Shown here in pieces: positions 21,561-27,046 of a DNA stretch of 36,370 nt. Source of the DNA: Promicromonospora soli (GTDB lineage: Bacteria; Actinomycetota; Actinomycetes; Actinomycetales; Cellulomonadaceae). Position numbers and translations under genes: made by a program. The stretch is from assembly GCF_014653785.1 (NCBI RefSeq), contig NZ_BNAS01000008.1, positions 1-36,370 on the forward strand. The letters run 5' to 3'. Under the pieces are notes generated by a model, which saw nothing but the letters and a program-made list of their open reading frames with translations, searched no databases and was not told the origin of the DNA. Each line of letters begins with the position of its first letter. The first letter of the stretch is position 1.

Positions 21561-21614
21561 AAATGTCCGCATTGCGACGCTGGCGCCAGCGTGGCGCGTT
21601 CCAAACCCACACAA

Positions 21615-21781
21615 TGAGGTTTTCTCGCCTCGTTTTTCAGCGCGATGATGCGTCCTTGAGGAAGGGGTTGAACGCGGGAGGTCGTCGCGCAGGGCCGTGA
21701 CCTGCGGGTTCACGGTGTGTCGCGGCCAGGACGCGGGGTCCTGACCGAAAGGATCGGGAATCCGCCAAGACACCCAGTTCC
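21615..21781 (+). repeat. 167-bp direct repeat, copy 1 (IS left-end fragment)
   Basis: These bases match 23557-23723 without gaps at a constant offset of 1942, with five mismatches that I counted (about 97% identity). Copy 1 stops matching at 21782, in the middle of a stem-loop that is complete in copy 2, so it is a truncated end of the same element. It is in the same orientation as copy 2. The two copies flank the arabinofuranosidase gene. Confidence 0.8.
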
Positions 21782-23480: not shown

Positions 23481-23556
23481 TTCGAGCGCAGTCTTCCGGG
23501 CGGGCAGTGGCGTGTCAATGCCTTGTGGCGGGCGGTGCCGGTGTTGTCGAGCGCAG

Positions 23557-23723
23557 TGAGGTCTTCTCGCCTCGTTCCTCAGCGCGATGATGCGTCCTTG
23601 AGGAAGGGGTTGAACGCGGGAGGTCGTCGCGCAGGGCCGTGACCTGCGGGTTCACGGTGTGTCGCGGTCAGGACGCGGGGTCCTGACCGGAAGGATCGGG
23701 AATCCGCCAAGACACCCAGTTCC
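23557..23723 (+). repeat. 167-bp direct repeat, copy 2 (IS left end)
   Basis: This is the second copy of the repeat at 21615-21781. Here it continues into a long stem-loop and the transposase gene, so it is the left end and leader of the insertion sequence. The element's exact outer end cannot be fixed because no right inverted repeat is left for comparison. Confidence 0.8.
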
Positions 23724-24508
23724 CCAGCGAGGACCCCGCGTTGATCACCTATCCTGCCAGCCTCGACGTGCCCCGAGCCACCCTGGAAACAGTGACGAGG
23801 TGGCTGGCCGCCCACCGGCGCCGGCCAGGTTCCCGCCCGGTGCAGCGCGCCGCGACCGCCCGCACGCAGGCGCTGCTGGTGCTGCGCTGGTTCAAGGACG
23901 CCACGAAGCTGCGGATCCTGGCCCTGGACGCCGGCATCAGCATCGCGACCGCCTACCGCTACCTGCACGAAGCGATCGACGTGATCGCGCAGAAGGCACC
24001 CACACTCGGGCAGGTCCTGGAACACGCCAACGCCCAGGACTGGCCCTTCCTCTGCCTGGACGGCACGCTGATCCCCGCCACGAAGATCGCCGCCCACGGG
24101 GCCGGGGCCGCGGACCTGTGGTGGTCGGGCAAGCACGCCCAGCACGGCGGGAACCTCCAGGTCCTGACCGGCCCTGCCGGCTACCCCGAATGGGTCAGCC
24201 CCGTCGAGCCCGGCACGGTCAACGACATCGTCACCGCCCGCACCCACGTCCTGCCCTGGCTGTATCCCGCCGCTGCCGCGGGACTGCCCACGCTGACCGA
24301 CAAGGGCTACGAGGGCGCCGGGATCGGCATCATCGTGCCGTTCAAGGGGACCACCCTGAACGCCGACGCGGTCAGCCGCAACGCCGCGATCAACGCGCTA
24401 CGCGCACCGGCCGAACGGGCCAACGCCCTGCCGAAAGCGACCTGGCCCGTCCTACGACGCATCACGCTCGACCCCTGGCGCATCACCGCGATCGACGCCG
24501 CCGCACTC
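23557..24508 (+). mobile_element. IS5-family-like insertion sequence, right end missing
   Basis: The element comprises repeat copy 2, a leader hairpin and a transposase gene that loses similarity after codon AAL at about 24508. No matching right inverted repeat is visible after this point; the DNA runs straight into the promoter of the zinc metallopeptidase gene. The element is therefore a right-truncated remnant, and it should not move by itself. Confidence 0.65.
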
Positions 24509-24631
24509 GACCCATTCCAGTACGTCGGTGGTGGTCGGCGGCAGTGGTCTTGTCGTCATGGCGGGCGACCGGGCCGCCGTAGCGGACTTCGTAGCCGGAG
24601 GGCCGCGCCACGTTGCTGCGGCCCCCGGTAA
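23741..24631 (+). pseudogene. IS5-like transposase, truncated 3' end
   Basis: The frame starts with TTG at 23741 and is open for 296 codons. Residues 1-256 look like an IS5-family DDE transposase: a helix-turn-helix with TKLRILALDAGISIATAYRYLHEAI (residues 46-70), CLDGTLIPATK with the first Asp, LTDKGYEGAG with the second Asp, and APAERANAL with the Glu. The family end, usually AAALVLLHxEHGRTT, is broken after ITAIDAAAL. The last 41 residues are an accidental Arg/Gly-rich readthrough of unrelated DNA to a stop at 24629-24631, ten bases before the next gene. The catalytic triad is intact, but the missing C-terminal residues and right end make it a remnant. Confidence 0.7.
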
Positions 24632-24640
24632 CGTGGCGGT

Positions 24641-25525
24641 GTGACATTCAACGAGGGTGGCCAGTTCGAGGGTGGCCGCGTCCGCAAGGGCGGCGGACGC
24701 CGCGGCGCCATCGCAGTGGGCGGCGGTGGCGGCGCGGTGATCGTCATCGCGCTGCTGTACATGCTGCTGACCGGCAACAACCCGGCCGAGATCCTCGGCG
24801 GCACCAGCTCCGACGGCGGCGGCGAGCAGGGCTACATCGGTGAGTGCACCGCCGAGGAGGCCAACACCAACCGCGAGTGCCGGCTGAACGCGGCGGTCCA
24901 GTCGCTCGACGCGTACTGGGCCGCCACCCTCCCGGAGCAGGGCGGCGTCGAGTACGAGCTGCCCGACGTCGTCAGCTTCACCGACGCGGTCGACACCGGC
25001 TGCGGCTCCGCGACGTCGGCGACCGGGCCGTTCTACTGCCCCGCGGACACCACCGTGTACGAGGACCTCGCGTTCTACGACGAGCTGTCCAGCCGGTTCG
25101 GCTCCTCGGGCGGGCCGCTGGCGGAGATGTACGTGACCGCGCACGAGTTCGGGCACCACATCGAGAACCAGCTCGGACTGTTCGAGCGGGCCGACCGGTC
25201 GGGAACCGGCCCGGAGTCCGACTCCGTGCGCATCGAGCTCATGGCGGACTGCCTCGCCGGGATGTGGGTCGGCAACGCCGCGACCACCGAGGACCCGGAC
25301 ACCGGCGTCACGTTCCTCGATCCGATCACGGAAGCCCAGCTGCGCGACGCGCTGTCCGCCGCTTCGGCCGTCGGCGACGACAACATCCAGCGCAGGTCCA
25401 GCGGCGACGTGAACCCCGAGGCGTTCTCGCACGGCTCCTCCGACCAGCGCGTCCAGTGGTTCACGATCGGCTACAACGGCGGCACCATCCAGGACTGCAA
25501 CGCGCTGGACGCGTCCAACCTCTGA
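24641..25525 (+). CDS. Neutral zinc metallopeptidase (YpfJ family), membrane anchored
   Basis: This 294-residue protein has an N-terminal signature MTFNEGGQFEGGRVRKGGG, one transmembrane segment at about residues 24-46 (IAVGGGGGAVIVIALLYMLL), and a zinc-peptidase domain with HEFGHHIEN at about residues 168-176. The HExxH-like motif here is HEFGHH; a downstream IELMADCLAG supplies the expected Glu ligand, and Cys pairs in TGCG and FYC may form disulfides. This matches the KPN_02809/YpfJ family (PF04228), with the peptidase domain outside the membrane. The start is GTG at 24641. The DNA just upstream is the truncated insertion element, so its original promoter may have been replaced. Substrate unknown. 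Confidence 0.85.
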   Translation: MTFNEGGQFEGGRVRKGGGRRGAIAVGGGGGAVIVIALLYMLLTGNNPAEILGGTSSDGGGEQGYIGECTAEEANTNRECRLNAAVQSLDAYWAATLPEQGGVEYELPDVVSFTDAVDTGCGSATSATGPFYCPADTTVYEDLAFYDELSSRFGSSGGPLAEMYVTAHEFGHHIENQLGLFERADRSGTGPESDSVRIELMADCLAGMWVGNAATTEDPDTGVTFLDPITEAQLRDALSAASAVGDDNIQRRSSGDVNPEAFSHGSSDQRVQWFTIGYNGGTIQDCNALDASNL

Positions 25526-25528
25526 CGT

Positions 25529-25534
25529 TACGGT
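25529..25534 (+). promoter_or_regulatory. Putative leaderless -10 box of the threonine leader
   Basis: TACGGT fits TANNNT and is separated by seven bases from the ATG at 25542, which is the spacing of leaderless actinobacterial transcripts. No good -35 box is evident. It lies three bases after the stop of the preceding gene. Confidence 0.5.
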
Positions 25535-25541
25535 TACAGAC

Positions 25542-25592
25542 ATGCACCTCAGCGCACGCACGACGACGCCGGACACCTCCGGCGCGCGCTGA
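25542..25592 (+). CDS. Threonine-rich leader peptide (putative attenuator)
   Basis: A 16-codon frame reads MHLSARTTTPDTSGAR and ends at TGA 25590-25592. Four codons are threonine: three consecutive ACG codons at 25560-25568 and ACC at 25575-25577. It precedes a threonyl-tRNA synthetase paralogue and ends 17 bases before a strong stem-loop. This is the arrangement of amino-acid leader peptides in classical transcription attenuation, with ribosome stalling at Thr codons as the signal. The start codon is at position +1 of a predicted leaderless message. The peptide itself has no expected function beyond being translated. Identification rests on position, composition and RNA pairing options; no homologue could be checked. 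Confidence 0.62.
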   Translation: MHLSARTTTPDTSGAR

Positions 25593-25637
25593 CCTGCAAC
25601 TCAGCAACCAGGCCCCGGAGCTCGCTCCGGGGCCTTT
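25577..25637 (+). promoter_or_regulatory. Threonine attenuator: antiterminator pairing and terminator
   Basis: The terminator is an 11-bp perfect stem, AGGCCCCGGAG (25610-25620) with CTCCGGGGCCT (25625-25635), a CTCG loop and a TTT tract ending at 25637. CTCCGG at 25577-25582, inside the leader frame, can instead pair with CCGGAG at 25615-25620, the loop-proximal part of the 5' arm, which would block the terminator. CCGGA (25569-25573) with TCCGG (25578-25582) forms a competing small hairpin just after the three Thr codons. A ribosome stalled at 25560-25568 would cover CCGGA and free CTCCGG for antitermination. A ribosome at the stop codon would hide CTCCGG and allow termination. Confidence 0.6.
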
Positions 25638-25681
25638 GTCATGTCGGGCGCCGGGGCAGCTCCTCCATCGAAGGAGTAGCC

Positions 25682-27046
25682 ATGAACATCCCCGCACCCG
25701 GCAGCCCGGCCGTGCACGACGCCCCGCCGGTCCTTGATCACCGCGAGCTAGGCCGCGACATGCGGATCTTCGACTCCAGCCCGCTGGTCGGCCCCGGCCT
25801 GCCGCTATGGCTGCCCGCCGGGGCGGCCGTGCGGTACGAGCTCGAGCAGTACGCGCGAGAGGTAGCGCTTCGCACCGGCTGCGAACCCGTGTACTCGCCG
25901 GTGCTCGGCAAGCGGTCGCTGTACGAGCGGTCGGGCCACTGGGCCAAGTTCGCCGACGACATGTTCCCGCCCATGTCGCTCGGCAGGTCCGACGCCGCCT
26001 CCGGTTCGGACGGCGCAGGGCCCGGTTCCGACGGCGAGGCCGCCGACGCCGACCCCTTCGTGCTGCGCCCCGCCAACTGCCCGCACCACGCGCAGATCTA
26101 CGCGTCCGAGCCCCGCTCGTACCGCGACCTGCCCGTGCGCTACTCGGAGCTCGGGTCGATGTTCCGTGCGGAGCGGTCCGGCGTGCTGTCCGGGCTGAGT
26201 CGCGTGCGGCAGATCAACCTCGACGACGCGCACGTCTTCTGCCGCCCTGACCAGGTCGGGGCGGAATTGCGCACCGCACTGGCCGCGATCCTGGAGGTGC
26301 TCGACACCCTGGGCATCAAGGTGTCGTACCTGCGCCTGTCGGGACGCGACGACTCGGACAAGTGGCTGGGCGAACCCGAGCAGTGGGCCTCGGCAGAGGC
26401 GGCGCTGCGCGCGGTGCTCGGCGACGTCGCCGCCGGGCTTGACTGGCGCGCCGAGGCGGGCGAGGCGGCCCCCTACGGCCCCAAGATCGACGTCCAGGTG
26501 CTCGACGCGCGCGGCCACGAGGAGACCCTCGCGACCGTGCAGCTCGACTTCAACCAGCCCGAGCGGTTCGACCTGACCTACTTCGCCGCCTCGGGCGAGC
26601 GCGAGCGGGTGGTCATGATCCACCGCGGCACCGTCGGGGCCATGGAGCGGATGGTCGCGTTCCTCCTGGAGCGGCACGCCGGACGCCTGCCGTTCTGGCT
26701 CGCGCCGGTGCAGGTCTGCCTGCTGCCGGTGTCCGACCCTTCGGCGGGCTCGGGGCAGCGCGCCGATGATCCCGGCGCCGACGAGGTCGGGGAGCTGGCG
26801 GCCGACCTGCGCGCCCGGGGTCTGCGCGTCCGGGTGGAGCGGGACGGGTCGCTGGGCAACCGGATACGGCTGTCCCGCAAGCGCCGGGACGCGCTGCTGG
26901 GCGTGCTCGGACCGCGCGAGGTCGAGGCGGGTGTGCTCGCGGTGACCGACCCGGCGTCGGGCGCGAAGGTCTCCGTGCCGCTCGCAGAACTGGGCGACCG
27001 GCTCGCGGACGCGGCAAAGCGGCGTGTCCTTCGGGTCGCGCTCTGA
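25682..27046 (+). CDS. Short threonyl-tRNA synthetase paralogue lacking TGS and editing domains
   Basis: This 454-residue class II synthetase corresponds to the catalytic plus anticodon-binding part of ThrRS; standard bacterial ThrRS is about 640-680 residues. It starts directly at DHRELGRDMRIF, the beginning of the catalytic domain. Zinc-ligand positions are kept: Cys133 in ANCPHH, His184 in DDAHVFC and His314 in IHRGTVG. Motif 2 contains FRAERSG with Arg162, and motif 3 is GAMERM. A Ser/Gly/Asp-rich insert fills residues 100-125. The C-terminal anticodon-binding domain begins near residue 335. The enzyme should charge tRNA-Thr but cannot remove misattached serine. ATG 25682 has AAGGAG seven bases upstream, and the ribosome site could pair with CTCCT at 25661-25665. 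The leader suggests induction by threonyl-tRNA shortage. Confidence 0.82.
   Translation: MNIPAPGSPAVHDAPPVLDHRELGRDMRIFDSSPLVGPGLPLWLPAGAAVRYELEQYAREVALRTGCEPVYSPVLGKRSLYERSGHWAKFADDMFPPMSLGRSDAASGSDGAGPGSDGEAADADPFVLRPANCPHHAQIYASEPRSYRDLPVRYSELGSMFRAERSGVLSGLSRVRQINLDDAHVFCRPDQVGAELRTALAAILEVLDTLGIKVSYLRLSGRDDSDKWLGEPEQWASAEAALRAVLGDVAAGLDWRAEAGEAAPYGPKIDVQVLDARGHEETLATVQLDFNQPERFDLTYFAASGERERVVMIHRGTVGAMERMVAFLLERHAGRLPFWLAPVQVCLLPVSDPSAGSGQRADDPGADEVGELAADLRARGLRVRVERDGSLGNRIRLSRKRRDALLGVLGPREVEAGVLAVTDPASGAKVSVPLAELGDRLADAAKRRVLRVAL

Follow-up and report, generated by a model that had tools for sequence, protein, structure and literature searches.

Attenuators of the E. coli type, such as those of the trp and thr amino-acid operons, work by a 1:2, 2:3, 3:4 pairing logic that is common to the leader studied here, which differs from them in that its RNA would start at the leader ATG, its target is a synthetase gene and a second hairpin lies over the Shine-Dalgarno (SD) sequence. 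An auxiliary, antibiotic-resistant TrpRS of Streptomyces was reportedly placed under ribosome-mediated attenuation by Vecchione and Sello in 2010, and it resembles the present case as a regulated actinobacterial synthetase gene behind a leader peptide that contains its cognate codon. The trpS and leuS attenuators differ in reading Trp or Leu instead of Thr, and antibiotic resistance is said to figure in the title of the work on that TrpRS. Attenuators of trpS and leuS were predicted in PMC1262725, where conserved RNA structures are reported to be lacking upstream of threonine operons. The mechanism proposed for the window leader is of a known kind with one published relative, thrL/thrS of S. 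lividans TK24 (SLIV_19412/19410), in which thrL lies before thrS and is leaderless by RNA-seq, with its termination unclear; alaL, trpL2 and leuL2 likewise precede synthetase genes in this species (PMC8079986). In a limited look at the literature, PMC8079986 was the only source found to describe a Thr leader or attenuator of thrS, and a Thr-leader system of the window type was not found in the available parts of PMC2965389, PMC4833913 and PMC9437257.

S. lividans thrL is similar to the window leader as a leaderless Thr leader before thrS, and its peptide MKRVRPFLETTPGFVPAR clearly resembles that of locus L132 in our set, MKRAQPFLTTTPDSVPAR. Judged by its leader pattern, thrL would belong to the same family as the window leader, and the Streptomyces-like members of this family carry the same kind of leader. 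The published case differs in that it comprises one species, a single hairpin and a peptide with two threonines, and the account, as far as its available text goes, is given without alternative pairing, codon partition, SD hairpin or distribution (PMC8079986). SLIV_19410 presumably encodes the short form of ThrRS, and thrS2, SCO3778 (called threonyl-tRNA synthetase in PMC10771440) and SLIV_19410 would be one gene. The preliminary description of the window knew of no leader-peptide attenuator for a short ThrRS, a statement that the publication of S. lividans thrL/thrS overturns (PMC8079986). S. lividans metL, the leader peptide of metNIQ, contains ATTTPGAR, similar to the Thr leaders considered here (PMC8079986), and its methionine assignment may be worth a second look. 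In the T1/T2 pair of Anabaena, the second ThrRS is editing-impaired and stress-induced, and the housekeeping enzyme can edit in trans (PMC4787780). T2 is comparable to the window ThrRS as a second ThrRS with impaired editing alongside a housekeeping ThrRS. However, low zinc is the inducer of T2, which has retained its N-terminal editing domain, interrupted by an insert (PMC4787780), whereas both N-terminal domains are absent from the window ThrRS, which is predicted to be under leader control.

The window is the whole stretch of 36,370 nucleotides of Promicromonospora soli DNA that was analysed, and the features of the locus are listed in Table 1. The preliminary description had noted a TANNNT box seven bases before an ATG, a 16-codon frame with a run of Thr codons, an 11-bp terminator-like stem, and a CTCCGG in the leader able to pair with CCGGAG of that stem, all in front of a ThrRS paralogue. 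Every one of these was found again at its place; the SD hairpin and the codon partition had been overlooked.

Table 1. Features of the leader and short ThrRS locus in the window.
Feature	Position	Strand	Basis or remark
TACGGT, -10 box of TANNNT type	25529-25534	+	read directly; 7 nt before leader ATG
Leader ORF MHLSARTTTPDTSGAR, 16 codons + stop	25542-25592	+	read directly
ACG ACG ACG, Thr codons 7-9, proposed stall site	25560-25568	+	read directly
CCGGA	25569-25573	+	read directly
Segment 2, CTCCGG, antiterminator 5' arm	25577-25582	+	duplex test, alignment, geometry
P0	25543-25546 with 25595-25598; 25549-25555 with 25586-25592	+	fold, duplex test
P1, hairpin 1:2	25567-25573 with 25578-25584	+	fold, alignment
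Segment 3, CCGGAG	25615-25620	+	in 3:4 5' arm
Terminator-like hairpin 3:4, AGGCCCCGGAGCTCGCTCCGGGGCCT, 11 bp	25610-25635	+	fold, duplex test
Weak tail TTTGT of 3:4, TTGT right after stem	element end 25639	+	
Hairpin 5:6 over Shine-Dalgarno AGGAG (25672-25676)	25655-25681	+	fold, duplex test
Short threonyl-tRNA synthetase (ThrRS), 454 aa, ATG 25682	25682-27046	+	profiles, alignment
Zinc peptidase gene upstream of leader	24641-25525		NF050010, PF04228

P0 is the outer part of the 1:2 structure; it adjoins the start codon and encloses P1. In comparison with shuffled sequences, both structures are strong: positions 25542-25598 fold with -27.5 kcal/mol (z -3.55) and the 3:4 hairpin with -23.9 kcal/mol (z -3.91). 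Farther upstream, a DDE_Tnp_4 transposase-like ORF lies just before the zinc peptidase gene (window 23741-24631), and a 170-nt direct repeat (96%; 21612-21781 and 23554-23723) stands on either side of a GH43/AbfB gene.

Both strands of the window were scanned for ORFs of the leader type (TANNNT, 6-7 nt, ATG or GTG, 6-30 codons), and the ORF at 25542 was the single one found. Applied to 1.24 million strand-bases of loci, some of which overlap or are duplicates, the same type of scan returned 116 ORFs, 94 of them with the threonine run TTT. A ThrRS core motif follows within 700 nt downstream of all 94 TTT ORFs (78 different sequences), for which the background outside ThrRS loci is small because the loci were mostly chosen for holding ThrRS. 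The model R1, built from 25 sequences with the window among them, scored 88 bits at the window site and at most 23 elsewhere in the same genome; each of 78 loci, 25 of which had built R1, gave one match of at least 34 bits, and the next best was 22. TANNNT was present in 76 of 77 parsed homologues, at 6 nt in 16 and at 7 nt in 60, with CATGGT in L053; the parsing script required [TC]ANNNT, present in all but L074, and L074 has TACCGT 7 nt before its start. A scan for the strict sigma-70 consensus found no promoter at the leader. Since TACGGT stands 7 nt before the ATG, the leader RNA probably starts at the A of this codon, i.e. is leaderless; RNA-seq supports such a start for the S. lividans homologue (PMC8079986). 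Across the 77 homologues the peptide varies widely outside its Thr run, but this run, the reading frame and the TANNNT box are constant.

The gene behind the leader encodes a ThrRS that has the catalytic core and the anticodon-binding domain but lacks the TGS and editing domains, because profile and structure matches begin at the catalytic core: TIGR00418 aligned at profile positions 172-562 of 565 (378.3 bits, just under the cut-off of 383.65) and the S. aureus ThrRS structure 1nyq aligned from residue 241 onward. The stretch ahead of the core is 2-76 residues long in the 67 short proteins, compared to 291, with the start chosen by us, in the normal full-length ThrRS that is also encoded in the same genome as the window. 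In an alignment of these 67 proteins, made without L044, a Cys, two His and two arginines, which we take to be the zinc ligands and the motif arginines of ThrRS, are invariant, and from these residues the short ThrRS is predicted to be catalytically competent. We also considered an ObaO-type resistant ThrRS and rejected it, since Gly463 (E. coli numbering), the glycine that follows the catalytic tyrosine, is unchanged in all 67 proteins.

The leader and the short ThrRS were found together well beyond the window, too regularly for chance. A scan of named genomes found the TTT leader in 35 of 35 loci, from Promicromonospora, Antribacter, Isoptericola (MAGs), Luteipulveratus, Nocardioides, Rhodococcus, Occultella, Geodermatophilus, Phytoactinopolyspora, Galactobacter, Flexivirga, Microbacterium, Microlunatus and Actinocatenispora. 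Among 394 genomes of the class, a protein search at 1e-88 yielded 42 matches, which were sorted by identity and open frame into 39 short forms (window included) and three taken as full-length (G558, G698 and G752; 42-43% identity, open frames of 671-846). The leader precedes 38 of the 39 short-ThrRS genes, and the remaining one, L139, is at a contig end. Every testable homologue thus has the Thr leader whose absence would have spoken against the preliminary description. Within the genus, 12 of 13 genomes, including that of the window, have the short ThrRS, and G008 is without it. In the stretches examined, no Thr leader was found before the full-length thrS of 13 same-genus loci or in L001.

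At least nine of 396 genomes of the phylum searched with R1 have both leader and short ThrRS (G000, G035, G054, G140, G174, G194, G217, G259 and G382), a lower bound because ten candidates were scored in each listed genome and at least one true site, that of G183, escaped the search. G054, G174, G217, G259 and G382 are labelled 'same phylum', not 'same class'. The placement of G054 and G382 outside the class may be doubtful, since they are fragmented assemblies (360 and 390 contigs) with 5% and 3% listed contamination and leaders very like class leaders. The leader of G217 reads TTTTTG and that of G259 TTTG, and their P1 differs and is complementary by eye. The weak R1 matches L073-L095 were not counted as members except L074 and L079, the only two retained by the leader-ORF scan, both before a short ThrRS; L073 (37.9 bits) is without a leader and without a ThrRS in view, and L084 begins near a contig start. 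The set of 78 loci leaves out L139 (contig end), L142 (the L054 sequence), L079 (found later), L070/L071 (the sites of L122/L116), and L007-L010 and L012-L017 (taken as repeats of named loci). Scripted counts refer to 77 loci because the TTTG of L074 misses the script pattern, and L074 was read by eye, as was L109, with a leader too long for the script.

The RNA pairings were compared across the family without an alignment: in 26 representatives (<80% alike) of the 77 homologues, two segments taken from one and the same sequence were set, by duplex energy, against the same two segments taken from different sequences. The CDS start had to be placed manually in 8 loci and the hairpin in 4. Matched versus mismatched z values were -4.7 for P0, -2.5 for 2:3 (140 of 20000 permutations as good), -11.5 for 3:4, -5.8 for 5:6 and -4.8 for 3:5, and those of the control pairings were -0.7 for 4:6, +0.6 for 2:5, +0.6 for 5'-end:5, -0.3 for 2:6 and -1.8 for 5'-end:3. 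The last, an intended control that was slightly better matched than mismatched, unlike the other four, reached -2.5 (127/20000) with all 77, where 2:3 reached -5.1. The two pairings at the heart of the proposed switch, 2:3 and 3:4, are mutually exclusive, and covariation, by which the preliminary description had proposed to judge both, supports 3:4 strongly and 2:3 modestly. The gain of 2:3, the weakest coevolving helix, is small (-13.1 kcal/mol matched versus -12.3 mismatched), an average advantage of under 1 kcal/mol over partners from other species. Segments 2 and 3 are able to form 5-11 pairs in all 77 homologues, to which the alternative pairing claimed for the window is thus open. In a model-based alignment of 76 rows, the 2:3 column pair 42:117 is CG in 37, UA in 31, UG in 6 and unpaired in 2. 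Two other pairs of 2:3 are poor (32 and 28 rows unpaired, which we put down in part to alignment register) and three are nearly or fully invariant; the covariation score of 2:3 is above all 500 shuffles, but 78 of the 500 reach its number of double-sided changes. The near-invariance of P1 gives hardly any covariation support and tells little either way; in L074 and L079 its sequence differs and is complementary by eye.

The geometry of the leader fits the two ribosome positions that the preliminary description had envisaged. Segment 2 begins 16-24 nt past the first Thr nucleotide in all 77 homologues, so that 5 nt or more of the segment stay free in 77 of 77, whichever of the three Thr codons holds the ribosome. 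A ribosome at the stop codon covers the stretch from 20 nt upstream of the first stop nucleotide to 13 nt downstream of it, and segment 2 lies wholly within this stretch in 75 of 77, consistent with its masking upon completion of the peptide. The far greater stability of 3:4 over 2:3 means that the switch has to be a kinetic one.

The leader, the alternative pairing and the geometry argue overall for the attenuator reading, and the element very probably controls an auxiliary ThrRS that lacks editing, by way of ribosome-mediated transcription attenuation. The RNA would start at the A of the leader ATG, with the ribosome trailing the polymerase. With the ACG-reading tRNA-Thr charged, translation would proceed to the leader stop, where the ribosome would cover segment 2; 3:4 would form and transcription would end. 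When this tRNA is short, the ribosome would wait at ACG-ACG-ACG and cover the 5' arms of P0 and P1, so that 2 could pair with 3 ahead of the synthesis of segment 4 and transcription would continue into thrS. In the absence of translation, P0 and P1 would form and transcription would end by default. During the inducing shortage thrS would stay translatable because it has almost no ACG codons. The ORF, codon choice, pairings with their coevolution, geometry and codon partition are the parts of this proposal that the sequences show; the transcription start, stalling, termination, isoacceptor specificity and physiological trigger are inferred.

The codon contrast between leader and gene is pronounced. 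At the three Thr positions of the leader, the conservation anticipated by the preliminary description was found in the form of ACG in 73, 75 and 77 of 77 homologues and ACC otherwise, i.e. in 225 of 231 Thr codons. The 67 short thrS genes have 4 ACG among 624 Thr codons, and 63 of them have none; with L044 added (68 genes) the count is 4 of 635, with 64 genes free of ACG versus 2.3 expected. All 8 Thr codons of the window ThrRS gene are ACC. Nine of the 77 genes were left out of the codon counts (L134-L138, L140, L141 and L065 for a short stretch or frame, and L059). The open frame of L044 runs on to 706 codons and that of L059 stops after 90, as in a broken gene or an assembly error. In flanking ORFs ACG makes up 37-38% of Thr codons (565/1497 in 57 ORFs of the representatives; 1597/4307 in 199 ORFs with at least 5 Thr codons from all loci), and just 3 of the 62 that contain 5-16 Thr codons are free of it; these ORFs were picked mechanically as the longest non-overlapping ones (at least 200 or 150 codons, GC3 above 0.8 or 0.7), and a part of them may be no genes. 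In 13 same-genus genomes the full-length thrS has ACG at 223 of 470 Thr codons (47%), and at 92 of 214 in the core alone. GCG, CCG and TCG take normal shares of their families in the same short genes (42%, 55% and 46%), therefore the lack of ACG is not a general dislike of NCG. Thr makes up 2.2-2.3% of the short proteins versus 4.1% of the full-length core, which is weak evidence because Lys and Phe differ more. As a separate observation, the housekeeping ThrRS (L018-L030, with L021 from the genome of the window) has a Thr-rich N-terminal stretch, e.g. TEATTTTATTTG, and ACG takes 131 of 256 Thr codons before the core in the 13 genes, the opposite of the short paralogue.

Because ACG is near-exclusive in the leader and near-absent from the synthetase gene, the leader probably senses the ACG-reading tRNA-Thr, and the thrS gene escapes its shortage. 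The genome of the window has tRNA-Thr genes with CGT, TGT and GGT anticodons. Uneven charging of isoacceptors shapes leader codons according to selective-charging theory. RNA pairing may contribute to the choice of ACG in the leader, since the third ACG is partly fixed by P1 and some terminator tails carry GTCGT, complementary to the ACGAC of the Thr codons; such a role would not explain the avoidance of ACG in the synthetase gene.

The tail of the 3:4 hairpin is often poor in T. Counted over 8 nt from the last 2 stem nucleotides, 4 T is commonest and 18 of 77 homologues have 1-2; the Streptomyces-like members have few T in their tails. At the T-poor tail of the window hairpin, a strict scan (5 T in 8) found no terminator. 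Given the poor U-tracts and the remark on termination in PMC8079986, termination may go by another route in some clades, or control there may lie in translation. GTCGT occurs in the tails of 30 of 77 homologues and 11 of 26 representatives, compared to 2 of 54 other hairpins (one of them L079's own attenuator) and 3.6% of 19-nt locus stretches; the window's tail (25633-25651) is without it. We claim no mechanism for these tails because the control hairpins are few and many perhaps lie in coding DNA, and they may add a further layer in part of the family. In L115, L128 and their relatives the terminator loop has its complement in a stretch that precedes the SD (GGGCGAACG with CGTTCGCCC, then TTT, in L115), which could be a second terminator or a switch.

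The hairpin over the SD raises the alternative that the same leader takes its main decision on translation, with 5:6, tied to segment 3 by 3:5, silencing the gene unless the ribosome stalls. The coevolution of 5:6 and 3:5 and the weak U-tracts of many members fit this reading, as does the SD stem pair 14:53, which is CG in 10, UA in 9, UG in 3 and other in 11 of 33 Streptomyces-like members, aligned out of the 77 for their peptide ending and a 20-60 nt tail. One of 500 shuffles had as many double-sided changes in this stem, and 67 of 500 had as high an overall covariation score. However, the SD is modelled as about equally closed in every state, at about 0.2 unpaired in the free RNA, under a ribosome placed at the stop and after 2:3 has been imposed, and the stalled state opened it by more than 0.1 in none of 26 representatives and closed it further in 4. 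The closure also exceeds that of shuffles only modestly (0.20 versus 0.32 unpaired; a median 0.21 of shuffles as closed), and the window hairpin 5:6 has a z of -1.43, with 22 of 200 shuffles as good. Control mainly at translation is accordingly an unlikely reading, and the SD hairpin is probably an extra brake on the synthetase. An anti-sequestor, in which the terminator loop would free the SD via 3:5, was rejected despite the coevolution of 3:5 because folding with 2:3 forced does not open the SD.

Other alternatives concern what the attenuator responds to. It may serve tolerance of ThrRS-targeting antibiotics (such as borrelidin or obafluorin) and not starvation, as is said of the auxiliary TrpRS of S. 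coelicolor (Vecchione and Sello, 2010). That thrS2 is among the WblC-activated genes of S. coelicolor (PMC7157823) is in keeping with such a role, but the ObaO resistance glycine (PMC11252418) is unreplaced in all 67 short ThrRSs, this one route alone having been examined, and we hold tolerance to be a possible, minority explanation. The ACG run could also sense loss of the ACG-reading tRNA-Thr by cleavage or modification, with the short ThrRS maintaining charging meanwhile. The codon partition, pointing to one isoacceptor and not to threonine generally, would suit this; the same codon pattern, however, follows from simple starvation with uneven charging under selective-charging theory, and tRNA damage seems rather improbable as the signal. 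Control by tRNA binding through a T-box, or by another known Rfam element, was suggested by the thrZ gene of B. subtilis, which the preliminary description gave as T-box-controlled; a paper in EMBO J in 1992 is said to have dealt with the two ThrRS genes of that species. In the window, neither the T-box nor the enterobacterial threonine leader nor any other Rfam family was found at gathering score, and the RNA before the hairpin is just 68 nt, mostly ORF, which makes this type of control very improbable indeed.

Transcription attenuation at the ACG run is thus the reading we prefer, and on balance we favour a codon-partitioned circuit built on it, in which the leader would read one Thr isoacceptor, the ACG-purged thrS would stay translatable in the very shortage by which it is induced, ACG is as frequent as usual in the housekeeping thrS, and the SD hairpin and tails perhaps add further layers. 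The comparison turns one published single-species annotation into a large family with a testable mechanism and suggests a function for the class of editing-less ThrRS paralogues. With one synonymous codon near-obligatory in the sensor and near-absent from the gene it would control, a contrast that spans several families of actinobacteria, the family offers a natural experiment on isoacceptor sensing.
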